DNA of 64,000 nt from a virus. Below, in pieces: positions 1,400 through 15,286 of the stretch. The notes below the pieces were generated by a model that was given only the letters and a program-made list of their open reading frames with translations, searched no databases and had not been told where the DNA came from. The stretch spans positions 62,001 to 126,000 of IMG/VR virus record IMGVR_UViG_3300020183_000013; one strand, 5' to 3'. Made by a program: the position numbers and the translations under genes. The stretch's first letter is position 1, and the number at the start of each line of letters is the position of its first letter.

Positions 1400-1958
1400 T
1401 AGTGGAAAACTGATGTTTTCTGAGGGTAACAATGACGAATGTTACACTCCGTTTTACGGTGTAACTCCAATTCTCAAATACATCCCTAAAGATGCAGTTG
1501 TTTGGTGTCCATTTGATACGATTGATAGTGAGTTTGTCAAACAGATTAGTAAGCAGAATGAGGTAGTCTTTACTCATATCAATTATAATCAAGACTTTCT
1601 CACCTATGAACCTGACAACTGGGATGTAATCGTATCTAATCCACCATTTACAAACAAGCGCAAGTTCTTCGAGCGAGCATTATCATTTGAGAAACCATTT
1701 GCTCTCATTATGACTAACACTTGGTTGAATGATAGTGCTCCTAAGCAGTTGTTCAAGGATAAGGATCTGCAACTACTAATGTTTGATAAGCGGATGAAGT
1801 TTCATAGCCCTGATGGTAGACCAAACGACAAGATTACATTCAGCAGCAGTTACTATTGCTGGAACTTTCTACCAAAACAAATCATTATGGAGGAGTTGAG
1901 TGTGCCACCTTCCAAACTGGCACAACGGACCCGTAGCGAGGCAGTGCTTCCCCTATAA
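1386..1958 (+). CDS. Adenine-N6 methyltransferase-like protein
   Basis: The protein (190 aa) has NWDVIVSNPPF at about residues 78-88, the motif IV (D/N)PP(Y/F) signature of N6-adenine methyltransferases, and an N-terminal NDECYTPF segment like the DExxTP start of phage Dam-type enzymes. The SAM-binding motif I is degenerate (VVWCPFD), so activity is uncertain. DNA or tRNA could be the substrate. The start overlaps def by 14 bp. The last 15 or so codons run through a promoter module, and the stop codon TAA lies inside the TATAAT -10 box of the next transcript, so the native C terminus may be a late extension. Confidence 0.65.
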   Translation: MKQLDSGKLMFSEGNNDECYTPFYGVTPILKYIPKDAVVWCPFDTIDSEFVKQISKQNEVVFTHINYNQDFLTYEPDNWDVIVSNPPFTNKRKFFERALSFEKPFALIMTNTWLNDSAPKQLFKDKDLQLLMFDKRMKFHSPDGRPNDKITFSSSYYCWNFLPKQIIMEELSVPPSKLAQRTRSEAVLPL

Positions 1959-1959
1959 T
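1918..1959 (+). promoter_or_regulatory. Early promoter, TGGCAC box plus TATAAT
   Basis: A TGGCAC box at 1918-1923 lies 30 bp upstream of a TATAAT -10 at 1954-1959, with no -35 hexamer between. An inverted repeat (GTGCCA at 1902-1907, TGGCAC at 1918-1923) sits at the upstream end. The predicted start of transcription leaves a leader of only about 10 nt before the gene at 1977. This is one of twelve similar modules in the window. Confidence 0.6.
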
Positions 1960-1976
1960 ACTTACATACGCAACAG

Positions 1977-2414
1977 ATGCCGATGAGCACTCCTACCATG
2001 CAAGCACAAGCACAACAAACCATCGCAGAGAATGTTCTCAAGAATACTCTGCTGCTGATTGAAGCATTGAAAGACAACTATCGTCAACACTCGATTCGTT
2101 CTCATCAGCGTTCTGTTGAGCGATTTGATGCAGTTCCTGGTTATCATCAGCGCAAGATTGATGAACTCAAGTCTGGTAAGTGCGACATTGATTATACCAT
2201 CGAGACTGGTAAAAAGTATCACAAAATCATTTTTGTTGATGGTGGTGGACAACGCTCTGCTCATGCTTTCATTGACAAGAACACTGGCGAAGTGTATAAA
2301 ACTGCATCATGGAAGTCTCCTGCCAAAGGTGTTCGTTATGACCTGCGATTGATTGCTGATCGTGAATACCTGCTGGAACATGCAGATTGGAGCGGGGGGT
2401 ATTTATACAAATAA
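1977..2414 (+). CDS. Hypothetical protein, 145 aa
   Basis: First gene of a transcript driven by the TATAAT at 1954. The N-terminal half is helical with a SHQRSVERF stretch; the C-terminal half has a beta-rich pattern (YHKIIFVDGGGQRSAHAFID, then GEVYKTASWKSPAKGVRYDL). The latter resembles conserved hypothetical proteins of cyanophages, with no function known to me. A second ATG at 1983 is equally possible, and neither has a clear ribosome-binding site, which fits a very short leader. Confidence 0.75.
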   Translation: MPMSTPTMQAQAQQTIAENVLKNTLLLIEALKDNYRQHSIRSHQRSVERFDAVPGYHQRKIDELKSGKCDIDYTIETGKKYHKIIFVDGGGQRSAHAFIDKNTGEVYKTASWKSPAKGVRYDLRLIADREYLLEHADWSGGYLYK

Positions 2415-2476
2415 CTCACTCTCAGTCAGTTGGAACTTTCTATGATGCTATTGGAAACTCTGGACATTATTGCACG

Positions 2477-2677
2477 ATGACTTACACTGACATCACAAAA
2501 CTTGAAAATTGTCCCGAATGTGGTGCAAATTGGGTTGAAAAACTGATTCCACAAGAATACTGGGAAAACTATTCTCCACCCTATTTTTATAGTCGTGTGA
2601 TTGGTATTGAATTGCTTGGTGAAGATCGTATCAATCATTGGGTGTGCCCTGATTGTAACCACAAGTTTCCCCGATGA
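2477..2677 (+). CDS. Zinc-ribbon protein, 66 aa
   Basis: Two CxxC pairs (CPECG near residue 12 and CPDCN near residue 59) make a plausible zinc ribbon. The segment between them is aromatic-rich (YWENYSPPYFY). A TTG at 2387 would extend the protein by 30 residues but overlap the previous gene, so I took the ATG. The stop overlaps the next start (ATGA). Such small zinc ribbons in phages often bind nucleic acid or polymerase, but nothing here proves it. Confidence 0.6.
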   Translation: MTYTDITKLENCPECGANWVEKLIPQEYWENYSPPYFYSRVIGIELLGEDRINHWVCPDCNHKFPR

Positions 2678-2928
2678 CTTACTCTAACCTCTCAAAGATT
2701 CGTCCTAAACTGAGAACAACTGGGCGTGTGTCTGGTAACTTCGGCAAGAGCAAAGTTGTTGCTGGTTCATCACTCAACGACATCGGTGGTGATGGTAACA
2801 TAGGTGCCACACAAGATGAATACCTGAAACGATTGTATCTTGCTTTTGATAACACTACCGACCCTAAACTTCGACATTTTCTGCATCAGGAAGTCCGCAA
2901 AATCTACATTCAAAGAGGAACTTGGTAA
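2674..2928 (+). CDS. Hypothetical protein, 84 aa
   Basis: The first half is basic and Gly/Ser-rich (KLRTTGRVSGNFGKSK), probably disordered; the second half is a helical stretch (DEYLKRLYLAFDNTTDPKLR). The gene is coupled to both neighbours through ATGA and TAATG overlaps. I recognise no family. Confidence 0.65.
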   Translation: MTYSNLSKIRPKLRTTGRVSGNFGKSKVVAGSSLNDIGGDGNIGATQDEYLKRLYLAFDNTTDPKLRHFLHQEVRKIYIQRGTW

Positions 2929-3233
2929 TGGCAACTTGGAGAGCAGAAGTATTTGCAAACTCTCGGGTTGGTCGCATCAACACTGAGGTTGAAGCTGCAA
3001 CATTCTCTGGAGCAAAGGAACAGATCTATGCAAAGCACGGTGATGTTCAACAAATTGTAAATCTACGCCAAGTAAGTTCTGGTGGTTCATCAGGTTCTTC
3101 TTTTGACCTTGATGGAACTGTATGGTTAATTGCTATTCTTGTTGGACTCTGGTTGATTGTAGAATACTGGTGGATTATAGTTCCTGTTAGTATCTTAGGT
3201 GGTATTCTTTACTACTTGGGCACCAGGGACTGA
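2928..3233 (+). CDS. Membrane protein, 101 aa, two TM segments
   Basis: A soluble N-terminal part (WRAEVFANSRVGRINTEVEA, then EQIYAKHGDVQQIVNLRQV) resembles a small ferredoxin-like fold seen in other cyanophage hypotheticals. A Ser/Gly linker and two hydrophobic segments follow (about residues 65-80 and 83-97). The start ATG overlaps the previous stop as TAATG. It is last in its operon, just before a promoter module. Confidence 0.7.
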   Translation: MATWRAEVFANSRVGRINTEVEAATFSGAKEQIYAKHGDVQQIVNLRQVSSGGSSGSSFDLDGTVWLIAILVGLWLIVEYWWIIVPVSILGGILYYLGTRD

Positions 3234-3245
3234 CAGTTCAATAAG

Positions 3246-3288
3246 TGGCACACAGGGGACTCCACAGGTCTCTTGTGTGCTCTATAAT
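3246..3288 (+). promoter_or_regulatory. Early promoter, TGGCAC box plus TATAAT, with hairpin
   Basis: TGGCAC at 3246-3251 is followed after 31 bp by TATAAT at 3283-3288. Between them lies a hairpin: GCACACA at 3248-3254 pairs with TGTGTGC at 3274-3280. It probably both ends the upstream transcript and starts the next one, since the -10 begins right after the stem. Confidence 0.6.
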
Positions 3289-3312
3289 ATAGAGGTAATC
3301 AGGGGAACCACA

Positions 3313-3588
3313 ATGACAGCACTCGCTCAGACCCCTCAACTGACCAGCAAGGATGGTAATATGATCGTGGACTTCTACCCTATCAAAACTCCTTATGGTG
3401 ATATTTCACAAGAGTGGTATCTGAAAGTTCTGACCTTCAAGGCTGCTGGAAATCAAATGTCTAAGAAGTGTCTGAATCGTATTGAGATGCTTCGGGAGAT
3501 TCGGGAACGTGTTGCTATTGGTTACACTGAGACCCGTGACAATTCTAATCTTCCTCAACTTGCAAACCCTATGTACGGAGCGTGCTGA
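3313..3588 (+). CDS. Hypothetical protein, 91 aa
   Basis: First gene after the promoter at 3283, with a good ribosome-binding sequence (AGGGGA) 7 nt before the ATG. The protein contains DFYPIKTPYGDISQEWYLKV and a basic helical segment (KKCLNRIEMLREIRERV). I do not recognise the family. Confidence 0.75.
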   Translation: MTALAQTPQLTSKDGNMIVDFYPIKTPYGDISQEWYLKVLTFKAAGNQMSKKCLNRIEMLREIRERVAIGYTETRDNSNLPQLANPMYGAC

Positions 3589-3590
3589 TT

Positions 3591-3749
3591 ATGAAAACCT
3601 ACCGCGTTGGGTTCAAATGGAAAGATGGTTCTGAGTATTATGTCGCAATGAAATGCACAGGTACTCCTACTGAAGTTTCTAAGGAACTTCTGGATCAGGA
3701 CAAAACAGGTAATTTAGTTGCTGTCTACGTTAAACCAGTTCACAAATGA
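3591..3749 (+). CDS. Hypothetical protein, 52 aa
   Basis: A short protein beginning MKTYRVGFKWKDGSEYYV with a beta-hairpin-like N terminus, followed by a helix (TEVSKELLDQD). Its stop overlaps the next ATG (ATGA), which supports it as a real coupled gene. The function is unknown. Confidence 0.65.
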   Translation: MKTYRVGFKWKDGSEYYVAMKCTGTPTEVSKELLDQDKTGNLVAVYVKPVHK

Positions 3750-3877
3750 AAGGATTTCTGTTTGGTTTCATTCTTGGAGTTGCATCTGCAACCGTTGGAT
3801 TCTCTGGACTTGCTCCAATGTTAGATCGCGGAGTTCACACAATTCAAGAGACAACAGAGAGTCTGACGCATAAGTAA
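3746..3877 (+). CDS. Small membrane or exported peptide, 43 aa
   Basis: The first 24 residues are hydrophobic (KGFLFGFILGVASATVGFSG), making one membrane span or an uncleaved signal anchor, followed by a short polar tail. Similar tiny membrane peptides recur in cyanophage early regions. The role is unknown; a change to the host envelope is only a guess. Confidence 0.65.
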   Translation: MKGFLFGFILGVASATVGFSGLAPMLDRGVHTIQETTESLTHK

Positions 3878-3882
3878 TAACA

Positions 3883-4344
3883 ATGAAAGAGTTCAATTAT
3901 GCCCTGGACTATAAAGTTCTGGACTTTACACTTCCAGAGAATCGCAAACTTTATCGCATTGGAAGGGGTGAGCAAGGAGTTTTATTGGTTCGCCCTTATA
4001 CAGACGATATTTGTAAGCATTGGAGATTTGTAAATGAATCTGTGGCTCGCAAATCTGCTGATAAAATATACAGAATGTTCTGTGATTATAAATCCTCTGG
4101 AGACTTCATTGGTATGGACATGTCACGGAAATTTCTTGAAATGGGTTTTACACGCGCCCGCAGGTATGCAAATCATCCTGATGGAAAAAAGTATGCTAGT
4201 GATGGTTCCGTTAAACCCCAGTCGCCAGTCGCACTACATTGTGTCAAAGCGAGATCGGCAACAATCTTCAAAGAAGTAAGAGATAAGGCAGCATATGACC
4301 CAGAGTATGTTATAATGAGAAAGAAATGGAGAGCAGCAGAATGA
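3883..4344 (+). CDS. DUF4385 family protein
   Basis: The protein (153 aa) carries the signature of the DUF4385 family: an N-terminal LDYK..DFT..ENRKLYRIG, then GEQGVLLVRPYTDDI, a central DFIGMDMSRKFLEMGFTRAR, and RYANHPDGKKY. The family occurs in bacteria and in T4-like cyanophages; its biochemical function is unknown. The length matches the family. The stop overlaps the next ATG. Confidence 0.85.
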   Translation: MKEFNYALDYKVLDFTLPENRKLYRIGRGEQGVLLVRPYTDDICKHWRFVNESVARKSADKIYRMFCDYKSSGDFIGMDMSRKFLEMGFTRARRYANHPDGKKYASDGSVKPQSPVALHCVKARSATIFKEVRDKAAYDPEYVIMRKKWRAAE

Positions 4345-4631
4345 ACCTGATCAACTTTAAGCATCGTGAAGACTTTGGACACGAATGGTATGTTCAGGTT
4401 CTTAATGTAAAAGGATGGAGTTTACTTCAAGCATCTGTAAGTTGGAATGATTATCCATCTTGGCCTTATATTCAAATTAAATCTGGTTCTGGTTCTACTT
4501 TGAGTATTTTATTCTGGGTTTATAAATTCGGTTTTGATATTGGTATTCTTGAACGCACTTGGAAATGGGACTATAGGGAGGAGTTGGATGAGCAAGAAAC
4601 TGAACCTAAAATAGAGTTTTATAAAAAATGA
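4341..4631 (+). CDS. Hypothetical protein, 96 aa
   Basis: The protein is rich in Trp and aromatic residues (WSLLQASVSWNDYPSWPY) with a hydrophobic centre (LSILFWVYKFGFDIGIL) that could be a buried strand or a membrane segment. I chose the ATG at 4341, coupled to the upstream stop, over the ATG at 4326. The stop overlaps the next gene. The function is unknown. Confidence 0.65.
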   Translation: MNLINFKHREDFGHEWYVQVLNVKGWSLLQASVSWNDYPSWPYIQIKSGSGSTLSILFWVYKFGFDIGILERTWKWDYREELDEQETEPKIEFYKK

Positions 4632-4813
4632 TAGGAAATCCAGATGATATTATACTCATAAGTCCATCAAAGATGTTTGAGTATGAAAAATTAGCAAGAA
4701 ATATTGATAATTGTGAGAATGTAGAGGAACTGCAACTTTCACTCAAAGGTATGTTAAAGTTGTATATGAAACAACAAGAAGTAACGGCACAAGTATTAAA
4801 AATGAAAATGTAA
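4628..4813 (+). CDS. Small helical protein, paralogue of the gene at 42640
   Basis: The protein (61 aa) shares NPDDI, then MFEYEK.ARNID, and a final KLYxKQQE with the 54-aa protein encoded at 42640-42804, just before gp13. It is predicted to be mostly helical. The function is unknown. The start and stop overlap both neighbours (ATGA and TAATG), so it belongs to this operon. Confidence 0.7.
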   Translation: MIGNPDDIILISPSKMFEYEKLARNIDNCENVEELQLSLKGMLKLYMKQQEVTAQVLKMKM

Positions 4814-5289
4814 TGAGCGAAGTAACCTTTAAAAAGCACAGAGTATTCCGTGAAACTCAATCAGTTATCTTTTATGATATTTCTGTGGAAGGATCTAATG
4901 CATCAGACCTCGTGGTTCATGAAGGTCCTGCTATCAGTCCTCCTGATGATATTGTAGGAGCAAAGCAATTTTATATTCACTATCATCAAGTAGACCACAA
5001 TCGTGTTCTTCAAGGTATTCGCACGTTTGAGTTAGTGAATCCCGAATGGAGATATCCTTATCATATCGTGCATCTTAATCGTTCTTCTGGTGCTCTTGTG
5101 ATTCCAAAGATGACCTTTCATCGTTCTTGGTCTGGAGAAGAAGGGTCAATAGTCATTAACCAAGCAATTCGTGATGAAGAATTTGATGATAAGACTGAGT
5201 TTATTCCAGTATCAGCAGCAAAGAATCCAGATCTTTACCACATTCTTGCACACGAAAAACCAGTCATTCATACACTTGGAGAAATGTGA
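4813..5289 (+). CDS. Conserved hypothetical protein, 158 aa
   Basis: A well-formed globular sequence with His/Tyr-rich segments (QFYIHYHQVDHNRVLQ, then WRYPYHIVHLNRSSGAL and MTFHRSWSGEEGS). The clustered His residues could bind a metal, but I know no family with this pattern by name; I have the impression that homologues exist in other cyanophages. The stop overlaps the next start. Confidence 0.75.
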   Translation: MSEVTFKKHRVFRETQSVIFYDISVEGSNASDLVVHEGPAISPPDDIVGAKQFYIHYHQVDHNRVLQGIRTFELVNPEWRYPYHIVHLNRSSGALVIPKMTFHRSWSGEEGSIVINQAIRDEEFDDKTEFIPVSAAKNPDLYHILAHEKPVIHTLGEM

Positions 5290-5519
5290 TGAAATTAACA
5301 CCAACATCTCTTCGTATTATTGGAAGCATTCTACTCATAATAGGATACTTTATTCTTCTTTATGTTGATGTCAAAACTGGTTGTTGGTTTCGTTTGATTG
5401 GTGGTTTAGTAATGGTTCCGTTCTCCATTAAAATTAAAACTTGGGATGTTGTAGGATTGCAGGTATTCTTCGCAACAATAGATATATCAAAGATTATTCA
5501 ATTGAGTTATGAAAATTGA
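5289..5519 (+). CDS. Membrane protein, 76 aa, two TM segments
   Basis: Two hydrophobic segments (SLRIIGSILLIIGYFILLYV at about 7-26 and LIGGLVMVPFSI at about 35-46) indicate a small integral membrane protein. The ATG at 5289 overlaps the upstream TGA; a GTG one codon earlier is possible. The C-terminal tail is overlapped by the next gene. The role is unknown. Confidence 0.7.
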   Translation: MKLTPTSLRIIGSILLIIGYFILLYVDVKTGCWFRLIGGLVMVPFSIKIKTWDVVGLQVFFATIDISKIIQLSYEN

Positions 5520-5667
5520 TATCACGATGGAAGAGTATGGTATAATTATTAATGCTCTACACTATTATAAAAAAGTAGAGAAGAAAGGAAACTTTCAGCA
5601 GTATGATGATAAAAGAATTAATGAGTTAAGAGACAAACTATCACATCAAATGGTATGGGAACAGTGA
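5509..5667 (+). CDS. Hypothetical protein, 52 aa
   Basis: A small helical protein beginning MKIDITMEEYGIIINALHYY and ending in SHQMVWEQ. It overlaps the end of the membrane protein gene by 11 bp. Small proteins of this type (ITMEEY...I..AL..Y) are frequent in cyanophages. It ends the operon. The 20 bp around its end are repeated at 6098. Confidence 0.6.
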   Translation: MKIDITMEEYGIIINALHYYKKVEKKGNFQQYDDKRINELRDKLSHQMVWEQ

Positions 5668-5759
5668 AGTATTTCTGACAAATGAAATCAAATGCTTCTC
5701 ATAGAATCACAATAGGCATAAATTTTTATTGCGTAATATCAGAAAATTAACACAAAACA

Positions 5760-5767
5760 TATAAATA
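5760..5767 (+). promoter_or_regulatory. T4-type late promoter motif TATAAATA
   Basis: An exact TATAAATA octamer lies in the 174-bp gap before the small Cys-rich gene at 5842. It matches the late promoter read by gp55 in T4. It is unexpected inside the early cluster and would place the 60-aa protein under late control. The rest of the gap (5668-5841) holds only tiny frames. Confidence 0.5.
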
Positions 5768-5841
5768 GTAGTAGAATATATGTGGTGATACAAATGAACG
5801 AAAACTCTTCATTATGATATTCTTTGTGCGTGGAGGACATT

Positions 5842-6024
5842 ATGCACAACTTAATTTCTTACAATCAACTATCTGGATGGAAACATTTTGAGGATACCGT
5901 AGACCGATGTAACGAGCAAAATGATTTGATTAATGACTATTTTAATTGTTTAATTGAGTGCGATGAAGACCAACAAAATTGTAAACGAATATGCAGGAAA
6001 TTATTAAGTCATAGCTCAATCTAA
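5842..6024 (+). CDS. Small Cys-containing conserved protein, 60 aa
   Basis: The ATG at 5842 has a strong ribosome-binding site (GGAGG) 5 nt upstream, which decides the start over a TTG at 5824. The protein begins MHNLISYNQLSGWKHFEDTV and has five cysteines, four of them in DYFNCLIECDEDQQNCKRIC. This fits a small conserved family of T4-like cyanophages with no known function. A late promoter motif precedes it. Confidence 0.8.
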   Translation: MHNLISYNQLSGWKHFEDTVDRCNEQNDLINDYFNCLIECDEDQQNCKRICRKLLSHSSI

Positions 6025-6036
6025 AAACCGTCTCCC

Positions 6037-6070
6037 GACCCTTGACTTCCACAGTCAGGGGTCTTATAAT
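6037..6070 (+). promoter_or_regulatory. Consensus sigma70 promoter overlapped by an inverted repeat
   Basis: TTGACT at 6042-6047 and TATAAT at 6065-6070 are separated by exactly 17 bp. An inverted repeat (GACCCTTGACT at 6037-6047, AGTCAGGGGTC at 6053-6063, 10 of 11 positions pairing) covers the -35 and most of the spacer. It could be an operator, a terminator stem for the upstream gene, or both. Confidence 0.7.
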
Positions 6071-6117
6071 AGGTGCATACAAATCTAAATCAAAAACCAT
6101 CAAATGGTATGGGAACA

Positions 6118-6291
6118 ATGATTGATCTTATTAAAACACTACTCAAATCAGCACTTGCTACCTCCCGTTGGGGTCCGCTAACAGAGGCAGATGAAGAACT
6201 TGTATGGGACTCTTCCTTTGCTAAAATATTCAAAGCATCATCTATCCACCGAACACCTTTAACACCACGCACTGCGATTACACTCGAATGA
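6118..6291 (+). CDS. Hypothetical protein, 57 aa
   Basis: First gene after the promoter at 6065. It starts MIDLIKTLLKSALATSRW and has an acidic middle (TEADEELVWD). An in-frame ATG at 6109 and a GTG at 6073 are alternatives. The stop overlaps the next ATG. The function is unknown. Confidence 0.6.
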   Translation: MIDLIKTLLKSALATSRWGPLTEADEELVWDSSFAKIFKASSIHRTPLTPRTAITLE

Positions 6292-6515
6292 CTCAAATTA
6301 TTGACTCTTCTGACCCACGATATTTTCGTCAAACATCTGACGAACCCTATCTTCGTCACGATTATAAATTGATAATGAGCAATGGTAATACCGTTGTCTT
6401 TGATAATTATGAAGATGTGCGGCGTAGGTGGTTAGAGAGTGGTGGTAACTTTTTAAGTCACGTTGAAGTTCTAGATCACAAAGAACCAAAGAATAAGAAG
6501 AAGAAAGGATTTTGA
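6288..6515 (+). CDS. Hypothetical protein, 75 aa
   Basis: The centre (YKLIMSNGNTVVFDNYEDVR) is a beta-hairpin followed by a helix, a pattern common among small cyanophage proteins; the C terminus is basic (KEPKNKKKKGF). It is coupled to the upstream gene by ATGA. I cannot name a function. Confidence 0.7.
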   Translation: MTQIIDSSDPRYFRQTSDEPYLRHDYKLIMSNGNTVVFDNYEDVRRRWLESGGNFLSHVEVLDHKEPKNKKKKGF

Positions 6516-6517
6516 TT

Positions 6518-6979
6518 ATGATTGACTGGACAGAAAGATTTTCATCCTTGCCTGATGTAGAACAAGATAAACTAGCCCTGTTGCGTGTGATTGAATGCAC
6601 AAATGGTGTCATTCAACACTCCTATCGTAGTGGAGATGATGATACACTGACGGTTGATGAAGTCAGAGACGCTATGAAGTTTTCTATGGGTTGTATGAAA
6701 CGACAGGAGATACCTGTAGGAGATAAGGTTGTTACCTTTGCACCCGAAACAAAAGAACTGATGACTGAAATGAGACGATTGTATATCTCTGGTGCGAAAC
6801 AAAACAATCAAGAAGATTTTAATGAGTTTCTCAAAGGATCTAAAGCAAATCTACTTGCGATAGGTAAAGAACGCATCTTGAAAGCAAGACGACTTGCATT
6901 CAATCATATTGACGAATTACCACCTCATACATTAGACTGGGGACTTGAATACATCTTTAGTTTTGCTGGGTGGGTATGA
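6518..6979 (+). CDS. Hypothetical protein, 153 aa, helical
   Basis: Predicted to be mainly helical, with CTNGVIQHSYRSGDDDTLTV and a longer basic/acidic helix toward the end (NLLAIGKERILKARRLAF). I took the ATG at 6518 over a TTG at 6512. The last base of its stop is the first base of the next ATG. No family is recognised. Confidence 0.7.
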   Translation: MIDWTERFSSLPDVEQDKLALLRVIECTNGVIQHSYRSGDDDTLTVDEVRDAMKFSMGCMKRQEIPVGDKVVTFAPETKELMTEMRRLYISGAKQNNQEDFNEFLKGSKANLLAIGKERILKARRLAFNHIDELPPHTLDWGLEYIFSFAGWV

Positions 6980-9865: not shown

Positions 9866-10019
9866 GATCTATTATAATGTATGGTGTTGTGCTTATCAGA
9901 GAAGGTATCTGTATAAGAAAACACCAAGAGAAAGTAGAGAGCATGAGACTGTTCTTATGTGTTTAGGTATCGCAAGGTTCACAGTGTTTGATACTGAAAA
10001 AACTAAGCATTTAAGTTAA
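9849..10019 (+). CDS. Hypothetical basic protein, 56 aa
   Basis: A short frame overlapping the previous gene's end by 17 bp. The protein is Tyr/Arg/Lys-rich (DKIYYNVWCCAYQRRYLYKK) with a hydrophobic section (ETVLMCLGIARFTVF). It is the last possible gene before the gene-free region. No family is recognised. Confidence 0.4.
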   Translation: MSEKDKIYYNVWCCAYQRRYLYKKTPRESREHETVLMCLGIARFTVFDTEKTKHLS

Positions 10020-10088
10020 TATAACGATAATATGATATTAAAATAATAAAAAAACGGCTTTTTAAATCATAGCCTATTATTTTGTTAT

Positions 10089-10103
10089 TGATAATCATTC
10101 TCA
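10089..10103. promoter_or_regulatory. Fur-box-like palindrome
   Basis: TGATAATCATTCTCA matches the 7-1-7 Fur operator form TGATAATNATTATCA at all but one fixed position. No clear promoter is visible immediately beside it. Binding by host Fur is inference. Confidence 0.4.
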
Positions 10104-10143
10104 ATAAAAGGTGTGATGAATACTCTTTTAATACCCTATAATA

Positions 10144-10178
10144 CCCTTAGATATCTTATAAACCCTTAGATATCTTAT
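10144..10178. repeat. Direct repeat, 16 bp twice
   Basis: CCCTTAGATATCTTAT occurs at 10144-10159 and again at 10163-10178. It contains the palindrome AAGATATCTT in variant form and sits among several ATACCCT and TATAATACC words. It may add to an origin or regulatory region. Confidence 0.7.
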
Positions 10179-10276
10179 GTTAATACCTTATAATACCCTT
10201 ATAAACCCTTCGGATCCTTGTGATCTTACACGTCGGCAGCTTAGCACAAGGTCTCTGAGTTGTCAAGGGACGCGCA

Positions 10277-10633
10277 CGAGATTCGCAGAGACGCACTAGA
10301 TTCGCACACACAAGACACTTCGAGATTCGCATAGGTCTCATAGTTACTTCGAGATTCGCACAATACCTTATAATCAAACTAGATTCACATCATATCATTA
10401 TATCGTTATATCATACTAGATTCACATAAGTTCTCGTAATCATTTCGAGATTCGCATCAATCACATAAACACTTCGAGATATCATCATATCATCATATCA
10501 TCATATACTAGATTCATTTCGAGATTCACACAATACATCTAGATTCTTACTAGATTCGCATATATACTGTCAAGGGTCTCGTGAACACTTCGAGATTCGC
10601 ACACAATAACTTGACACACCTTCTAGATTCACG
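10277..10633. repeat. Dispersed repeat array, core (C/T)(G/T)AGATTC(G/A)CA
   Basis: About 14 copies, all in the same orientation, start at 10277, 10296, 10321, 10350, 10379, 10416, 10446, 10475 (degenerate), 10508, 10520, 10539, 10550, 10591 and 10623. Two subtypes alternate: CGAGATTCGCA, often preceded by ACTT, and CTAGATTCACA. Spacing is irregular, mostly 11 to 41 bp. The last copy lies inside the spacer of the promoter at 10611. Confidence 0.85.
10481..10504. repeat. Three tandem copies of ATCATCAT
   Basis: A perfect 8-bp unit repeated three times inside the repeat array. It may be slippage-derived. It adds to the low-melting character of the region. Confidence 0.8.
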
Positions 10634-10639
10634 TATACT
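10611..10639 (+). promoter_or_regulatory. Consensus sigma70 promoter, TTGACA-N17-TATACT
   Basis: TTGACA at 10611-10616 and TATACT at 10634-10639 are exactly 17 bp apart. The spacer contains the last copy of the repeat (CTAGATTCACG at 10623-10633), so a protein binding the repeats would block or touch RNA polymerase here. It drives the 57-aa gene at 10672. Confidence 0.8.
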
Positions 10640-10671
10640 ATACACATAGTTTTTCAGGAGTTCGAGTTCTT

Positions 10672-10845
10672 ATGTCTAGTTCTTATCTGTCTGCAACAAA
10701 GACTAAGTATCGCATCACGTTAGAGCTAGAGGTGTTTCCAGATATGAATCCTCATCAGATTCAGTGGGAACGTGTACTCGAACTTGAGCCTGCGGAGAAG
10801 GTTAACTCTTATGTCGAAGACCTGAGTACACCTGACCGCTGGTAG
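10672..10845 (+). CDS. Hypothetical protein, 57 aa
   Basis: It has its own strong promoter and a ribosome-binding site (CAGGAG) upstream. The protein contains TKYRITLELEVFPDMNPHQI and ends VNSYVEDLSTPDRW, a pattern I associate with small conserved proteins of T4-like cyanophages. It is followed by an intrinsic terminator, so it is a monocistronic unit, probably very early. Control by the repeat array is likely, and it is the first candidate for a repeat-binding regulator, although I see no DNA-binding motif. Confidence 0.75.
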   Translation: MSSSYLSATKTKYRITLELEVFPDMNPHQIQWERVLELEPAEKVNSYVEDLSTPDRW

Positions 10846-10881
10846 AAACTATAGTTCAGTCTCCTTAAGTTTATCTCTTAA

Positions 10882-10917
10882 GATCTCCCATTCTACCAAG
10901 AATCGGGAGATTTTTTT
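10882..10917 (+). terminator. Intrinsic terminator
   Basis: ATCTCCCATTCT pairs with AGAATCGGGAGAT around a short ACCA loop, with one bulged base, followed by seven T. It ends the transcript of the 57-aa gene. Confidence 0.9.
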
Positions 10918-10941
10918 ATGTCTTTGTGCCACTTGTAGAAC

Positions 10942-10983
10942 TGTCCATAATATTCACCAAACCCCTGTGGAACCTGGTATATT
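10942..10983 (+). promoter_or_regulatory. Early promoter, variant box plus TATATT
   Basis: TGTCCA at 10942-10947 lies 30 bp before TATATT at 10978-10983. The box departs from the TGGCAC form, so this is the weakest member of the class, but the spacing is the same and the -10 is preceded by the CCTGG also found at the 11270 promoter. Confidence 0.4.
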
Positions 10984-11013
10984 TGCAATGTGGTTAATTC
11001 TCTACACAAAACC

Positions 11014-11262
11014 ATGCAAGACTTTTCCAAGAAATTCTACCAAACCCTGATGCTCAATGTTGCAACAATTGCCGCGATTGTGGTGGGAATTGTGACATTT
11101 ATGATTCGCTCCTTCAATGAGAACAATGGGGCAGAAAAGACACGTAAGGTGTTACAAACTGTTCTGCGCTTCGTTGATACCATTGTGGGCAAGCTTCAGG
11201 TTCTGGTGAATACTGATGTGCCAGAAGTAAAAGTGGCACAGAAAACTACCAAAGGGAAGTGA
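11014..11262 (+). CDS. Single-pass membrane protein, 82 aa
   Basis: One hydrophobic segment at about residues 13-31 (MLNVATIAAIVVGIVTFMI) follows a short basic N terminus; the rest is a soluble tail ending EVKVAQKTTKGK. I chose the ATG at 11014 (MQDFSKKFYQTL) rather than upstream alternatives because it is closest after the predicted transcript start. The promoter box of the next gene lies within its last codons. Confidence 0.65.
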   Translation: MQDFSKKFYQTLMLNVATIAAIVVGIVTFMIRSFNENNGAEKTRKVLQTVLRFVDTIVGKLQVLVNTDVPEVKVAQKTTKGK

Positions 11263-11275
11263 ATCCTGGTATATT
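11234..11275 (+). promoter_or_regulatory. Early promoter, TGGCAC box plus TATATT
   Basis: TGGCAC at 11234-11239, inside the end of the upstream gene, lies 30 bp before TATATT at 11270-11275. The -10 is followed by ACATTCGTTC, a word also found after the -10 of the promoters at 12008 and 12328. Confidence 0.6.
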
Positions 11276-11300
11276 ACATTCGTTCGGTTGAAAACTGACT

Positions 11301-11435
11301 ATGTGCGGTCCTGCTTTTGAGTATACTCGGGAAGATTTCCTGAATGATGCTTCTGATGAAGAATGGGTTGAATGGGAACAGAAAGCAGCAGAACTTGAGT
11401 TGACTCTGGATTACTACCTCGCCGAATTTGTCTGA
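11301..11435 (+). CDS. Hypothetical acidic protein, 44 aa
   Basis: It starts MCGPAFEYTREDFLNDASDE and is strongly acidic, with 14 Asp/Glu in 44 residues. It has its own promoter and is coupled to the next gene by TGATG. The function is unknown. Confidence 0.65.
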   Translation: MCGPAFEYTREDFLNDASDEEWVEWEQKAAELELTLDYYLAEFV

Positions 11436-11632
11436 TGGAATTTGTTAACTACGTTCGTTCATTCTATGGCCCTGGTGGTATCTACTCGATGAATGTAACT
11501 GATGCAATGATCATCGACGCCACCATACAGTACTTGACAACTCCTGGCACACGTTGGTGCGATGGTGATAGTTTCGACCGCGAACATGTTCGTGACATTA
11601 TGATCGAACGGTTCGGTCTTGTGCCAACCTGA
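11435..11632 (+). CDS. Hypothetical protein, 65 aa
   Basis: It begins MEFVNYVRSFYGPGGIYSMN, contains a helix (VTDAMIIDATIQYLTTPG) and ends in a basic/acidic helix. A conserved-looking small cyanophage protein of unknown role, second gene of a two-gene transcript. Confidence 0.7.
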   Translation: MEFVNYVRSFYGPGGIYSMNVTDAMIIDATIQYLTTPGTRWCDGDSFDREHVRDIMIERFGLVPT

Positions 11633-11636
11633 GAAC

Positions 11637-11680
11637 TGGCACACGGGGTCGCCACAGACCCCACCCCCTGACCCTATACT
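11637..11680 (+). promoter_or_regulatory. Early promoter, TGGCAC box, hairpin and TATACT
   Basis: TGGCAC at 11637-11642 is 32 bp from TATACT at 11675-11680. A hairpin of GGGGTC (11645-11650) and GACCCC (11657-11662) with the loop GCCACA lies between. The whole module is nearly duplicated at 14521-14564. Confidence 0.65.
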
Positions 11681-11705
11681 GATTCAGTCAACCACACACG
11701 AGATC

Positions 11706-11966
11706 ATGCTCAAGAAAGTATCACCCGAAAAGGCAACTCCATCTCCTGTTGTAGTTAACAAAGGAAAGCATGGATACAACTGCTGGGTGTATTCTAGCAG
11801 GATTCAGAAGAATGGCAACACATACTTTAAGTATACAATTGCCCACACATTCAAGCAAAAGTTTGTATCTAGAGAGGATGCCCTGATGTATGGTTGGGCG
11901 AAAGTTAATGGGCACAAAGTTACAACTTTCGATGTGCCCATGCGCCACAAACCTGTGACAGTCTGA
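11706..11966 (+). CDS. Hypothetical protein, 86 aa
   Basis: A basic protein with a beta-rich core (YNCWVYSSRIQKNGNTYF) followed by a helix (SREDALMYGWAKVNGH), somewhat like small AP2-type DNA-binding folds of phages. That is only a resemblance in strand and helix order. It is a single-gene unit. Confidence 0.65.
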   Translation: MLKKVSPEKATPSPVVVNKGKHGYNCWVYSSRIQKNGNTYFKYTIAHTFKQKFVSREDALMYGWAKVNGHKVTTFDVPMRHKPVTV

Positions 11967-11970
11967 CTAG

Positions 11971-12013
11971 TGGCACAAGACCCCTTGCGGTTCTCCTGAT
12001 TCTGGTTTACATT
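11971..12013 (+). promoter_or_regulatory. Early promoter, TGGCAC box plus TACATT
   Basis: TGGCAC at 11971-11976 is 31 bp from TACATT at 12008-12013. The following ACATTCGTTC is shared with the promoters at 11270 and 12328. A short GACCCCTTGCGGTTCTC stretch lies between. Confidence 0.5.
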
Positions 12014-12040
12014 ACATTCGTTCAAACAAAGGAACACCAA

Positions 12041-12286
12041 ATGCGTCCTGTTTCTGTTCACCCTGAGAAAAGCATTCGGTTCACTGAACACGCTAAGTTC
12101 TGGTGTGAAATGTTGAACAATTATCGCAAATGTTACCCTAAGCATTCGTTTGCTAAAATGGCAGAACATTTCGATCTGAGTGAAACAAATGCCCGCCGAT
12201 ATTACTATGGAATGCATCAAGCAAATCTGGGGTATTTTGGCAATGGTTACAATCAAATCCGCAGGGGTGCCTGTGTGACACTCTGA
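12041..12286 (+). CDS. HTH-like protein, 81 aa
   Basis: Residues 35-60 (SFAKMAEHFDLSETNARRYY) fit a helix-turn-helix pattern: a first helix with an Ala-Glu-His-Phe turn and a recognition helix with Asn-Ala-Arg-Arg. It could be a small DNA-binding regulator of this promoter array. It is a single-gene unit with its own promoter and a good ribosome-binding site (AAAGGAA). Confidence 0.55.
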   Translation: MRPVSVHPEKSIRFTEHAKFWCEMLNNYRKCYPKHSFAKMAEHFDLSETNARRYYYGMHQANLGYFGNGYNQIRRGACVTL

Positions 12287-12290
12287 GAAC

Positions 12291-12333
12291 TGCCACAAGG
12301 GGGGTTGCAATGCTCCCCAATCCGTTCTACATT
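12291..12333 (+). promoter_or_regulatory. Early promoter, TGCCAC box plus TACATT
   Basis: TGCCAC at 12291-12296 is 31 bp from TACATT at 12328-12333. A GGGG...CCCC stem (12299-12304 with 12314-12317) lies between. The -10 and downstream word match the promoter at 12008. Confidence 0.5.
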
Positions 12334-12358
12334 ACATTCGTTCCTGAGACACCAACCG

Positions 12359-12796
12359 ATGACCGTGACTCTGACTGCTTCCTATCGTGAAATGCTGCAC
12401 GAAGATGCAGTTGCTAAGATCGATGAGCTTCTGGAGGAGAACTATGCTCTCGATGATATGCTTGAGTTCATCGATGAGCGTAATGAGACCAACTTCGTTC
12501 TCTTTTATGAAGAGTATGTGCGTGTTGGTGAAGCAATCGGTTATGAAGCAGTAGATGCTCTCATTGATGAAATGGGATGCGTTTCTGACATTGAAGATTG
12601 CGACGAACGTTATCAAGGTTGCTATCAAGATGAGGCAGAGTTTGCAGAATCTTTCTACAATGAAATGGGTTGCAACATCCCTGAAGGAATTGTAGTGGAT
12701 TGGGAAGCAACGTGGGAAACTTCGCTGCATTATGATTACACTTCCTGCAGTGATGGTAGCACCTATCGTTCTTGCCACATCTTCCGCGATTGCTGA
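12359..12796 (+). CDS. ArdA-like antirestriction protein
   Basis: The protein (145 aa) is strongly acidic and follows the order of the ArdA C-terminal region: a helix (AVDALIDEMG), a YQGCYQDEAEFAESFYNE segment matching the Y.G.Y.s..dFA form, then IPEGIVVDWEAT matching IP..l..yiDyea, and a final HIFRDC like the closing (H/Y)VFR of ArdA. ArdA proteins mimic DNA and block type I restriction enzymes. The typical ArdA is about 165 aa; this one lacks part of the N-terminal domain. It has its own promoter and terminator. Confidence 0.6.
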   Translation: MTVTLTASYREMLHEDAVAKIDELLEENYALDDMLEFIDERNETNFVLFYEEYVRVGEAIGYEAVDALIDEMGCVSDIEDCDERYQGCYQDEAEFAESFYNEMGCNIPEGIVVDWEATWETSLHYDYTSCSDGSTYRSCHIFRDC

Positions 12797-12803
12797 TAAG
12801 AAT

Positions 12804-12830
12804 GGGGGGATTAATTCCCTCCCTTTTTTT
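12804..12830 (+). terminator. Intrinsic terminator
   Basis: GGGGGGA and TCCCTCC pair around the loop TTAAT, with one G-T pair, followed by seven T. It ends the transcript of the ArdA-like gene. Confidence 0.9.
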
Positions 12831-12870
12831 ATACTTTTATTTTAAATATTTTTTAGCAGGGGCGGTGGCG

Positions 12871-12975
12871 ATGGTTTTCGTCTTAGAGGCTACCCCGCCT
12901 CTCATCCGATTGTCCCCATATTATAAGGCAGCCACGGGGGCATTCGTGGGCAGCCAGTGCCACTTCCCGAACTGA
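12871..12975 (+). CDS. Possible 34-aa peptide
   Basis: A short frame after a purine-rich stretch (GGGGCGGTGGCG) beginning MVFVLEATPPLIRLSPYYKA. It lies in the GC-rich 190 bp between a terminator and the next promoter, which otherwise hold no gene. It may be chance. Confidence 0.25.
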   Translation: MVFVLEATPPLIRLSPYYKAATGAFVGSQCHFPN

Positions 12976-13014
12976 CCACGACCCATTGCGTTGGGTGCTG
13001 ATCCGTGCCATACT
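12973..13014 (+). promoter_or_regulatory. Early promoter, TGACCA box plus CATACT
   Basis: TGACCA at 12973-12978 is 30 bp from CATACT at 13009-13014, in the context TGATCCGTGCCATACT that recurs at 13965 and 15828. The predicted start of transcription falls at or beside the ATG at 13021, which suggests a leaderless transcript. Confidence 0.5.
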
Positions 13015-13020
13015 AACCGT

Positions 13021-13932
13021 ATGCAAAACAAACACCTCGAACACCCCGAAGATACCATCCTCACGGGTGACCTTTCTGTTCTTGATTGGTTTACTGCTGC
13101 AGGATTCCTGAGTGTAAAGATTGATGGTGCCCCTGCAATTGTATGGGGTAAGAATCCTGCGAACGGTAAGTTCTTCGTTGGCACCAAAGCTGTGTTCAAC
13201 AAAGTAAAGATTCGTATTGCACACAATTATGAAGAAATTGATGCGTTCTATCAAGGTGAGGTTGCGTCTATTCTTCGTGCTTGTTTTGATTATCTGCCTC
13301 GCATCGATGGTATCATTCAAGGGGATTTTATTGGTTTTGGCGGTAGTGATGAGTATTGCCCCAACACGATTACTTACCAGTTTGGTGAAGTAGTAACTGA
13401 AGAGATCATTGTTGCACCTCACACTTACTACGTTGCAGAAAAGGATCTGCGGGATGCTGTAGCGTATCCGATGAACTTTATCATCACTGATACTCCCTGT
13501 GTGAAGTTTGTGAAACCTGATGTATACATTGCACACGGTCAAGAATCGTTCGCTGATGTAAAAGAAGTCTGTGGATTTGCTCGTCAAATGTCTACTCTTG
13601 CAACGTTTGTAACTGATAAGGAAGCACAGAAGATCAAGCAACAACTGAATGCCTGCATTCGTGCTGGTGAAGAAGTCAACCCTGAGGACTTTGATTGTGA
13701 TGCTAACCTGTTGCGTTTGTGGGCACTGGTGAAGTCGATTAAGGATGATTGTCTGTTCCTTTGTCGTAACAATGGGCCTGCAGCTTATCTGGGTTCTCCT
13801 CATAACGGCTATGAAAGAATTGACTCTGAGGGTTACGTAATGACCAATGAGTTTGGTATGTTCAAACTGGTGAATCGTGAGGTATTCTCTCACGCCAACT
13901 TCACCAACGGTCGATTTCAGTGTGCCACCTAA
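13021..13932 (+). CDS. Nucleotidyltransferase/ligase-like protein
   Basis: The protein (303 aa) shows the motifs of the covalent nucleotidyltransferase superfamily (ATP-dependent ligases and capping enzymes): KIDG at residues 33-36 within VKIDGAPAIVWG (motif I, Lys as the AMP acceptor), a GKFFVGTKAVFNK strand after it, IIQGDFIG near 98-105 (motif III-like), EGYV near 270 (motif IV) and FKLVN near 280 (motif V). A His-Leu-Glu-His-Pro-Glu-Asp sequence at the N terminus recurs in a phage family I recall with a KWDGAPA motif. Activity is unproven; DNA or RNA end joining is the inferred role. A TTG at 12991 is less likely than the ATG chosen. Confidence 0.6.
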   Translation: MQNKHLEHPEDTILTGDLSVLDWFTAAGFLSVKIDGAPAIVWGKNPANGKFFVGTKAVFNKVKIRIAHNYEEIDAFYQGEVASILRACFDYLPRIDGIIQGDFIGFGGSDEYCPNTITYQFGEVVTEEIIVAPHTYYVAEKDLRDAVAYPMNFIITDTPCVKFVKPDVYIAHGQESFADVKEVCGFARQMSTLATFVTDKEAQKIKQQLNACIRAGEEVNPEDFDCDANLLRLWALVKSIKDDCLFLCRNNGPAAYLGSPHNGYERIDSEGYVMTNEFGMFKLVNREVFSHANFTNGRFQCAT

Positions 13933-13937
13933 ACAAG

Positions 13938-13980
13938 TGCCACATCCTCCCTTGTGGAGGTCCTGGATTCGTGCCATACT
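13938..13980 (+). promoter_or_regulatory. Early promoter, TGCCAC box plus CATACT
   Basis: TGCCAC at 13938-13943 is 31 bp from CATACT at 13975-13980. A hairpin (CCTCC at 13946-13950 with GGAGG at 13956-13960) lies between, and the -10 context GATTCGTGCCATACT resembles the promoter at 13009. Confidence 0.55.
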
Positions 13981-14003
13981 ACGTTTGTTGCTGAGGGATT
14001 TCA

Positions 14004-14132
14004 ATGGATTTCGACACTGACTTCTGGGGTGAGATTCAAGATGCCCCTGGTGAAATCTTCGACATTCCAGAGTTCGATGACTCTGATGATTTCAACCTCA
14101 ATGAGTATTTGAACGCTTCCTACGATTACTGA
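14004..14132 (+). CDS. Very acidic small protein, 42 aa
   Basis: It begins MDFDTDFWGEIQDAPGEIFD and has 14 Asp/Glu in 42 residues with no Lys or Arg. It has its own promoter. The charge suggests DNA mimicry or binding to a basic partner; no family is recognised. Confidence 0.6.
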   Translation: MDFDTDFWGEIQDAPGEIFDIPEFDDSDDFNLNEYLNASYDY

Positions 14133-14136
14133 AACA

Positions 14137-14331
14137 ATGCAATTTCAAGTTACTGCAATCGAGTTTGATTTTGATGATGAGGATCTACATCCTGAGGAGA
14201 AATCTGACATCATCGAGGATACAGTAGGACACATCTGGGAAGCAGATGATGAAGATGATCTCATTGAAGAGATCACTTCGTGGACAGGTTGGTGCATCAA
14301 ATCCATTGATTATCGTCACGTTCTGATCTGA
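14137..14331 (+). CDS. Very acidic small protein, 64 aa
   Basis: It begins MQFQVTAIEFDFDDEDLHPE and continues with clustered Asp/Glu (EADDEDDLIEEITSWTGW). The strand-then-helix pattern is protein-like. It is co-transcribed with its acidic neighbours, 4 bp after the previous stop. The function is unknown. Confidence 0.65.
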   Translation: MQFQVTAIEFDFDDEDLHPEEKSDIIEDTVGHIWEADDEDDLIEEITSWTGWCIKSIDYRHVLI

Positions 14332-14333
14332 TT

Positions 14334-14516
14334 ATGTACCGCACTGAACTTCAAGACGCCTACATCAATCAGGTTCTTGATGATATGGACATCAAAGATG
14401 CAATGGCATTGTTGTTTGATTTTATGGATGCTGACCTTGATAAGTATAGTGAAAAGCAACTGATTGAAGAGATTAGTCACTTTTATCCCGAACTGGTGGA
14501 GGATGTGACAGACTGA
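14334..14516 (+). CDS. Acidic helical protein, 60 aa
   Basis: A helical acidic protein (YINQVLDDMDIKDAMALLFD, then ADLDKYSEKQLIEEISHFYP). It directly follows the 64-aa gene and precedes the next promoter module. Unknown function; with its two neighbours it forms a three-gene acidic cluster. Confidence 0.65.
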   Translation: MYRTELQDAYINQVLDDMDIKDAMALLFDFMDADLDKYSEKQLIEEISHFYPELVEDVTD

Positions 14517-14520
14517 CTAG

Positions 14521-14564
14521 TGGCACAAGGGGTCGCCACAGACCCCACCCTGACCCCTTATACT
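14521..14564 (+). promoter_or_regulatory. Early promoter, TGGCAC box, hairpin and TATACT
   Basis: TGGCAC at 14521-14526 is 32 bp from TATACT at 14559-14564, with the stem GGGGTC/GACCCC (14529-14534, 14541-14546) between. It is almost identical to the module at 11637-11680. Confidence 0.65.
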
Positions 14565-14587
14565 GATCTCAGTTCAGACAACCCCCG

Positions 14588-14827
14588 ATGATCGTCCAAC
14601 AGATCGGCAGCAACATGACCGAAGTGCAACTTGCCGATGGCACTTGTGTACTGGTCTCCTACACGACCCCCGTTGCTGCCCTTGTGCCTGGGAAGGGATG
14701 GATCCGCACTGCCCACAAGTGGAGCGCCACCACCACCAAGCACATTAACAAGTGGCTTGCCAAGAACTGCGGTGGCGCTGTTCAGACTGTGACACAATGG
14801 GAAGTGGATCAACTGCTCGCATTCTGA
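14588..14827 (+). CDS. Conserved hypothetical protein, 79 aa
   Basis: The sequence has LADGTCVLVSYTTPVAALVP, then a KWSATTTKHINKWL segment. This pattern (a YxTPVA strand followed by S.TT.KHIN.W) recurs in small proteins of cyanobacteria and phages, with no known function. Codon use is GC-rich, unlike the flanking phage genes. Confidence 0.7.
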   Translation: MIVQQIGSNMTEVQLADGTCVLVSYTTPVAALVPGKGWIRTAHKWSATTTKHINKWLAKNCGGAVQTVTQWEVDQLLAF

Positions 14828-14851
14828 CCTTTCCGACCCTGTAGAATCCTT

Positions 14852-15052
14852 ATGATCACCACCACCCGATTCCGCTTGATCCGCACCCCTCGCTTCCTTG
14901 CTCCTCTGTTCTACGCTGCCCTCGCTACCCGCCCCCGTGTCGGTGATGAGGCAGCGGCAGTGAGCATCGGTCCTGCCTACCTTGGCATCTACCGCACCCA
15001 TAACGGGTTTGAGGTTGTCTACGGCATCCTGAACGAACAGGAAGCACTCTGA
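14852..15052 (+). CDS. Hypothetical protein, 66 aa
   Basis: The N terminus is basic and hydrophobic (TTRFRLIRTPRFLAPLFYAA) and the remainder is a small beta pattern (AYLGIYRTHNGFEVVYGI). A TAGAAT at 14842-14847, only 4 bp before the ATG, may be its -10. It is GC-rich like its neighbours. The function is unknown. Confidence 0.6.
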   Translation: MITTTRFRLIRTPRFLAPLFYAALATRPRVGDEAAAVSIGPAYLGIYRTHNGFEVVYGILNEQEAL

Positions 15053-15108
15053 CCAATGGGAACTGCAGCGCCCTAAAGACTGCTTCAACCATCCTACCCC
15101 TTTCTGAA

Positions 15109-15240
15109 ATGACCCGCGACCTGGCTCTGTCCCTGCTCCGTCAAGGCACCAACGGCGACAGCATCCTTAAGATTCTGGAGACCATCGCCAACCCTAGCGA
15201 CGATAGCGCACAACCGACCGCCGAGCCCATCCAGTTCTGA
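15109..15240 (+). CDS. Hypothetical protein, 43 aa
   Basis: It starts MTRDLALSLLRQGTNGDSIL, a short helical motif of the LLRQGxxGxxIL type that I associate with small cyanobacterial and cyanophage proteins. It is GC-rich. A weak upstream box (TGACCA at 15050) is present without a convincing -10. Confidence 0.6.
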   Translation: MTRDLALSLLRQGTNGDSILKILETIANPSDDSAQPTAEPIQF

Positions 15241-15243
15241 CTC

Positions 15244-15286
15244 TGACCACTGGCCCCCTCGGATGATCCGCAGGGGGCCTTATACT
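15244..15286 (+). promoter_or_regulatory. Early promoter, TGACCA box, long hairpin and TATACT
   Basis: TGACCA at 15244-15249 is 31 bp from TATACT at 15281-15286. A strong stem fills the gap: GGCCCCC (15252-15258) pairs with GGGGGCC (15273-15279), with GGAT/ATCC extending inside. The stem ends 1 bp before the -10. Confidence 0.65.

Follow-up and report, generated by a model that had tools for sequence, protein, structure and literature searches.

The stretch of DNA analysed here (the window) comprises 64,000 nucleotides, positions 62,001 to 126,000 of IMG/VR virus record IMGVR_UViG_3300020183_000013, which is 137,575 bases long. Part of the terminase region is approximately 75% identical to that of cyanophages S-SM2 and P-TIM68, which ranked at the top of 40 records, and we therefore regard the window phage as one of the T4-like cyanophages, abundant killers of marine picocyanobacteria. 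The first 16 kb of the window are packed with short open reading frames (ORFs) on the + strand, and long ORFs are present from ~19 kb onwards. Many genes in this first part are preceded by a module that consists of a 24-bp dyad (TGTGNCA-N10-TGNCACA), a gap of 29-31 bp and a -10 hexamer, usually with no -35 hexamer. The location of the genes behind the modules, and the fact that they are small, suggest that these are early genes.

An initial annotation of this DNA had described twelve promoters here, each with a five-base box at a fixed distance from a -10, and no -35. All twelve box/-10 pairs are present at their coordinates, with a start-to-start distance of 36, 37 or 38 bp. The pair was scanned as TGNC[AC] followed 36-38 bp downstream by [TC]A[TC]A[ACT]T, with 200 shuffles for comparison, and 14 matches were detected on the + strand at 1-16000, versus a mean of 1.8 in shuffled DNA (standard deviation 1.27, maximum 6 in the 200 shuffles). 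On the + strand at 16001-64000 the pair occurred at chance level (4 versus 4.3 expected), and the minus strand contained 3 versus 2.1 in the first 16 kb and 2 versus 5.6 in the late 48 kb. The 14 matches are the twelve pairs together with those at 819 and 6607, neither of which has a dyad scoring 9/12 or better.

The five-base box is a real signal, but it is merely the right, promoter-proximal half of the dyad, the left half of which (TGTGNCA) begins 17 bp before it. A perfect dyad (12/12) was seen at 8 of the 12 sites; there is almost none at the box at 15244, and the dyads at boxes 12973 and 10942 are weak, the latter box having been rightly called poor (see Table 1 for scores). Across the whole record 8 perfect dyads were found versus 0 for the reversed pattern, and all 8 lie within window positions 1901-14527, ahead of -10 hexamers of the initial annotation. 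Modules, defined by a dyad of at least 9/12 and a -10 at a gap of 29-31, numbered 10 on the + strand of the first 16 kb versus 0.11 in shuffles, with 2 versus 0.2 on the minus strand and 1 versus 0.3 and 0 versus 0.4 in the late part. With the predicted start (+1) placed 12 nt past the first -10 base, a purine is present there at 13/13 window sites; at 11 of these an ATG follows 11-24 nt after the predicted start, the exceptions being 12956 and 14788. Three further candidate modules are located upstream of the window, at record positions 52087, 53440 and 59671.

Other phages carry the same arrangement. IMG/VR was scanned for the dyad with TATANT anywhere 20-45 bp downstream, and at least 120 stretches were recovered; among the matches listed, the gap was 29 in 95, 30 in 40, 28 in 17, 31 in 13 and 32 in 11, with 1-8 in the other filled bins. 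These include at least 168 distinct modules among the matches listed, 93 of them with a gap of 29 and 36 with a gap of 30. The profile of the 168 modules listed shows one variable position per half-site, mostly C or A, and inner flanks that are T-rich on the left and A-rich on the right. This profile shows no strong -35 and nothing that is strongly conserved from the dyad to the -10, and the predicted +1 was a purine in 93% of these modules, all of which had been chosen for TATANT. The IMG/VR sample thus bears out a class of promoters that have an upstream element at a fixed place and normally lack a -35. A set of 21 stretches from a scan of genome contigs, which had no control, does not enter the counts.

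Since the IMG/VR loci were picked with a spacer of 10, their spacer histogram is biased, and we preferred that of a set of 16 phages, namely the record analysed here and 15 isolates, of which stretches were read. A spacer of 10 was found in 68 perfect dyads of these phages, and every other spacer from 0 to 25 at most 3 times; TATA[ACT]T was present at gap 29 in 24 cases and at gap 30 in 13. An apparent second peak in these phages at gaps of 34/35 (10 matches) was discarded, as all came from ACG-2014f and were hexamers overlapping a -10 at 29-30. Among 22 cyanophage isolates, perfect dyads were detected in 14, and a dyad with at most one mismatch in 18 (7/10 and 11/12 in the two sets scanned), compared with 3 reversed-control sites in all. 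Counts reached 23 in ACG-2014f and 13 in S-SSM7. As the chance expectation, estimated by hand, is ~0.4 dyads with at most one mismatch per genome, we consider Syn33 (1 site), S-RSM4 (3) and S-ShM2 (3), the latter two with imperfect sites only, to be near chance. No dyad was found in S-SM2, P-TIM68, S-TIM5 and Ma-LMM01 of the 22 isolates. Enrichment of TTGAC ~17 bp before TATA[ACT]T was observed in S-SM2 and P-TIM68. In S-SSM7, P-SSM2 and P-TIM40, 25 of 29 predicted starts lay 0-60 nt ahead of an annotated gene (13-21% for random positions), and 27 of the 29 were purines. P-TIM40 carries seven modules in the stretch ahead of gp25, and Syn9 has two perfect dyads with the -10-like hexamer TATTCT at gap 29.

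The absence of a -35 in the window holds in so far as no site comes near TTGACA (best 4/6), but does not hold strictly, since TTG occupies the exact -35 slot at four sites (11954, 12274, 12956 and 13921). Among IMG/VR modules listed at gaps of 28-32, an exact TTGAC/TGACA in the -35 region was present in 6/163, versus 101/3949 for all TATA[ACT]T sites, and TTG in the exact slot was present in 8/37 gap-30 modules listed versus 205/3780 in the background. At a gap of 40, 5 of the 6 modules among the IMG/VR matches listed carried an exact TTGAC/TGACA. When TTGACA was required in the scan, 65 modules were obtained, 47 of them at gaps of 28-32, 17 at 39-41 and 1 at 51. The step of 11 bp, from a gap of ~29 to ~40, implies that the dyad keeps its orientation around the helix, which is what a protein in contact with polymerase would require. 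A -10 on both sides was found for 9/256 IMG/VR dyads listed, versus ~2 expected from control offsets (18 versus 4.4 of 187 sides), and for 4/68 dyads in the 16 phages; such two-sided dyads suit a symmetric dimer.

The initial annotation had suggested either an activator or an alternative sigma factor. The activator fits better. An alternative sigma factor is disfavoured by the -10 and the +1 purine, which are of the primary-sigma type, by the occurrence of the dyad together with a full TTGACA, and by the coexistence of a TTGACA-17-TATAAT class: TTGAC/TGACA ~17 bp before TATA[ACT]T was enriched in most of 11 phages tested, and several phages carry both classes. An extended -10 was also not seen, the two positions of a TGn having T in 37% and G in 26% of the 168 IMG/VR modules listed.

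We therefore propose, with a probability of roughly 0.78, that the modules represent a promoter class of T4-like cyanophages in which a putative dimeric activator acts on the dyad, and host polymerase with its primary sigma factor acts at a -10 that is usually without a -35. The class is most likely that of the early genes. A dimeric activator would bind the 24-bp dyad at about -65 to -42 and would hold host RNA polymerase on the -10, replacing the -35 contact. We infer an activating, dimeric factor that contacts polymerase from a single side of the DNA and is either produced or delivered by the phage.

The same dyad could instead be the operator of a repressor that silences early genes later in infection, with a -10 that is self-sufficient or assisted by a partial -35. 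Dyads are the usual sites of repressors, the interval from -65 to -42 adjoins the polymerase footprint, and a minority of modules does have a partial -35. Most modules have neither a -35 nor a conserved TGn, so that the promoter would be weak unaided, and the fixed gap of 29-30 bp, with its step to ~40 when a -35 is present, suits an activator better than a repressor. We consider a shut-off operator quite improbable.

Several hairpins in the gaps had been pointed out previously. They are strong at 11620, 12274, 14504 and 15227, but weak or absent at 1901, 10925, 11217, 11954 and 14788. Among 170 modules listed, the minimum free energy (MFE) of the gap reached -9 kcal/mol or lower in 21%, versus 8% of shuffles and 1.2% of the stretches upstream of the dyad, and a stem with a T-run was found in 7% of gaps versus 2.7% in shuffles. 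These figures, together with a weak association towards pairing at the variable arm position (odds ratio 3, p 0.007), could indicate that the dyad and the gap hairpins fold into RNA structures or cruciforms similar to the promoter early stem loop (PeSL) cassettes of T4-like phages, which are described in PMC4503421. However, among the modules listed the variable arm position was mispaired in 48/154 combinations and the spacer ends were unpaired in 101/148, the other arm positions being uninformative because they are fixed by the search pattern. The poor pairing of the variable positions makes protein binding the better reading. Moreover, only the 21% of gaps mentioned above reach an MFE of -9 or lower, and no Rfam match was found in window 1-17000. 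A structural role is thus mostly refuted for the dyad, where we give it only a very slight chance, and does apply to those gaps, a minority, in which a terminator is present. The gap hairpin is optional and no part of the element; the gap, having no strong promoter contacts, seems able to house the terminator of the preceding gene. In such a minority of modules the end of one gene, its terminator and the next promoter would overlap.

A number of observations weigh against an activator-dependent promoter class as proposed here. Of the 13 window sites, four have either a weak dyad or a start that is open to dispute, and no recognised -10 was found at 28-32 bp on either side of 78/256 IMG/VR dyads listed and of 10/68 dyads in the 16 phages. 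The two phages closest by terminase, S-SM2 (GU071095) and P-TIM68 (KM359505), have no module, which is hence not universal. TTGACA matched at 5/6 with a spacer of 16-18 occurs in 13/162 modules listed versus 171/3780 other sites, and because this looser test is above background, a minority of modules appears to keep a partial -35. The gap-40 cases are for the most part a single homologous promoter that recurs in related contigs, with ~5 independent by eye. In a co-occurrence analysis of all stop-to-stop ORFs, no protein strictly tracked the module. In addition, an activator that is needed right after injection must come from the virion or the host, which the model leaves unexplained. Finally, 201 genomes sampled from the host family contained 20 dyads versus 3 in the reversed control (~26 by a rough hand estimate for uniform DNA), and the full module, with at most 2 mismatches, was found 6 times versus 2 in the reversed control in 61 host genomes, a small excess.

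The last two points would also be accounted for if the dyad were the site of a host transcription factor exploited by the phages, in the way that cyanophages exploit NtcA-type sites, because early promoters must use what the cell contains at injection. Three dyads were found in each of two host genomes; in one of these genomes a dyad lies near a gene pair with HTH_17 and PIN_3 domains, and a near-identical dyad is present beside a similar helix-turn-helix (HTH) gene in another host genome. More generally, part of the host dyad excess is located near genes with HTH_17 and PIN_3 domains. The 20 dyads are, however, spread over 16 genomes with at most 3 in each, 185 of the 201 genomes have none, and no host regulon was found by the dyad scan of the 201 genomes or by the module scan of the 61 picocyanobacterial genomes. 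The dyad also differs from the NtcA and CRP consensus sequences. A host-derived factor, which had been left open initially, thus receives little backing from the host genomes, and a scan of relatives and hosts for the spaced pair, also envisaged then, has yielded the module in many cyanophages but no regulon in picocyanobacteria. We consider a host site unlikely; a host protein with binding sites very unlike those of the phages may nevertheless be involved.

A phage-encoded factor is favoured. A 74-amino-acid protein of family phrog_1179 was present in 8/9 module-rich and 0/5 module-poor phages, and absent from Syn9 and S-CRM01, which are intermediate. AbrB/MazE-like proteins were found in 8 of 11 phages with at least 3 modules and in both Syn33 and S-RSM4, which have 2 modules each. 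They were absent from S-SM2, P-TIM68 and S-TIM5 (0-1 modules), a looser pass giving one match in S-TIM5. For both families, no module was present at the start of the gene (0/48 and 0/20). A MazE/AbrB-like phrog_661 protein lies at most 800 bases from the phrog_1179 protein in 10 pairs among 22 phrog_1179 matches, for instance at 58146-58896 of the record analysed here and at 1729-2113 of S-PM2. The small AbrB/MazE-fold protein (phrog_661), often beside the phrog_1179 protein, is a candidate for the factor, as a lead with little evidence behind it. A 67-amino-acid protein that appeared HTH-like by eye and is found in 5/8 phages was dropped as a candidate. The accessible part of PMC9692554 describes a MarR factor of phage P-SSP7 that binds downstream of the start site, and gives no matching motif.

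Somewhat short of even odds, in our estimate, is the fuller proposal that the activator belongs to an undescribed phage-encoded or virion-delivered family that stands in for MotA. Its half-sites would be 17 bp apart, and it would dock on host polymerase from one side, at a distance of 29 bp to the -10 whether a -35 is present or not, or of ~40 bp where there is a -35; it could serve two divergent promoters and would leave the gap free for a terminator. The phrog_661 protein enters this proposal only as the lead mentioned above.

The sites of the window are collected in Table 1. The module at 12274 precedes a gene (12359-12796) for an anti-restriction protein (phrog_36653, E 1.8e-47; an ArdA Pfam match was below the cut-off), which fits a role in host takeover. 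For the HTH-like protein (by eye) encoded at 12041-12286, neither Pfam nor PHROGs gave a match, and no relative was found in the sequences searched. A variant of the proximal half (TGACCAC or a near match), followed by a gap hairpin and a -10, was observed at 12956-12979 and 15227-15250 as well as in S-PM2 near 24098 and in S-SM2 near 114624, and may represent a second specificity of the same system.

Table 1. Dyad modules on the + strand of the window, with dyad scores out of 12 and positions in window coordinates.
Module	Grade	Dyad (score)	Gap (bp)	-10 hexamer	Predicted start	ATG	Remarks
1901-1959		1901-1924 (12/12)	29	TATAAT 1954-1959	1966	1977	
3229-3288		3229-3252 (10/12)	30	TATAAT 3283-3288	3295	3313	left half ACTGACA; hairpin in gap
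7481-7539		7481-7504 (12/12)	29	TATAAT 7534-7539	7546	7563	
10925-10983	weak	10925-10948 (9/12)	29	TATATT 10978-10983		11014	left half perfect, right half TGTCCAT
11217-11275		11217-11240 (12/12)	29	TATATT 11270-11275	11282	11301	
11620-11680		11620-11643 (12/12)	31	TATACT 11675-11680	11687	11706	GGGGTC/GACCCC hairpin in gap
11954-12013		11954-11977 (12/12)	30	TACATT 12008-12013	12020	12041	
12274-12333		12274-12297 (12/12)	30	TACATT 12328-12333	12340	12359	hairpin in gap; anti-restriction protein gene
12956-13014	weak	12956-12979 (8/12)	29	CATACT 13009-13014	13021	13021	right half TGACCAC; predicted start coincides with ATG; DUF6267 gene
13921-13980		13921-13944 (12/12)	30	CATACT 13975-13980	13987	14004	
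14504-14564		14504-14527 (12/12)	31	TATACT 14559-14564	14571	14588	GGGGTC/GACCCC hairpin in gap
14788-14847	candidate	14788-14811 (10/12)	30	TAGAAT 14842-14847	14854	14852-14854	absent from the initial annotation; ATG overlaps predicted start
15227-15286	doubtful	15227-15250 (5/12)	30	TATACT 15281-15286		15310	right half TGACCAC; gap filled by very strong hairpin (-24 kcal/mol)

Elsewhere in this part of the window, ~600 bp at 10040-10640 contain a single listed ORF (65 amino acids, minus strand) and are made of imperfect repeats, for example CTAGATTCGCA / CTTCGAGATTCGCA and AATACCCTATAATACCCTTA. Outside the phage records, NZ_RMVE01000006.1, filed as Nonlabens xiamenensis, is 98.2% identical to cyanophage P-TIM40 over 8 kb and looks, by this identity, like a phage contig inside a bacterial assembly. 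A Flavobacteriales genome, TMED113, has six dyads on two contigs.

The module can be set beside several known types of promoter. With the host SigA/sigma-70 promoter, TTGACA-17-TATAAT, the dyad class shares the -10 and the +1 purine, and differs in usually having no -35. The consensus of sigma-54 promoters is TGGCAC-N5-TTGCA; in the modules listed TGGCAC lies ~29 bp before TATANT and no TTGCA-like block follows it in the profile. Promoters of the NtcA/CRP class II type have a dimeric activator upstream of a -10 without a -35, and the consensus is TGTGA-N6-TCACA for CRP or GTA-N8-TAC for NtcA. The proposed module resembles these in its putative dimeric activator upstream, whereas half-sites, spacer and distance differ: the 68 dyads have a spacer of 10 between 7-mers, and other spacers occur at most 3 times. 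PeSL cassettes combine promoter and stem-loop between genes of a variable region, and some modules of the dyad class may be comparable; hairpins are enriched in the gaps, but the stem-loop is present in a minority only and is located between dyad and -10.

The MotA box of T4 is a single short site near -30. The T4 middle promoters, in which a phage activator site replaces the -35 and host sigma reads the -10, are similar to the dyad class in this respect (PMC5780444). Unlike the MotA box, the dyad is 24 bp long and is centred near -53, and the modules listed have no conserved block at about -30. According to PMC5780444, T4-like middle promoters are missing from marine T4-like cyanophages, as are motA and/or asiA. 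The lack of these T4 middle-gene regulators raises the question of how T4-like cyanophages switch on their first genes. A searchable promoter definition would allow the starts of takeover genes to be predicted in uncultured phages.

In the accessible parts of PMC4503421, PMC9692554, PMC5780444, PMC5931967, PMC6359870, PMC8776855, PMC7238727 and PMC5082946 the dyad motif was not found. A literature search by the letters of the motif gave no cyanophage paper among the matches listed, and the motif may still be in print. The closest parallel appears to be the early element of Doron et al. 2016, who reportedly found that a novel element controls the early genes of Syn9 and that host-like promoters drive the middle genes. 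Similar results are said to have been obtained in P-TIM40, with the elements conserved among T4-like cyanophages. The dyad module is probably this novel regulatory element. Like the dyad module, the Doron element comes from T4-like cyanophages, and both Syn9 and P-TIM40, for which expression timing is known (PMC7238727, where Doron is cited), carry the module. The statement in the initial annotation that no published class has this layout is probably wrong. What that annotation had caught, from half of its element, is a real and conserved promoter class. The dyad anatomy, the use of one dyad by two divergent promoters, the shift by a helical turn where a -35 is present and the missing host regulon may or may not be part of what Doron et al. 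described; the module itself is most likely a further member of the class that they published.

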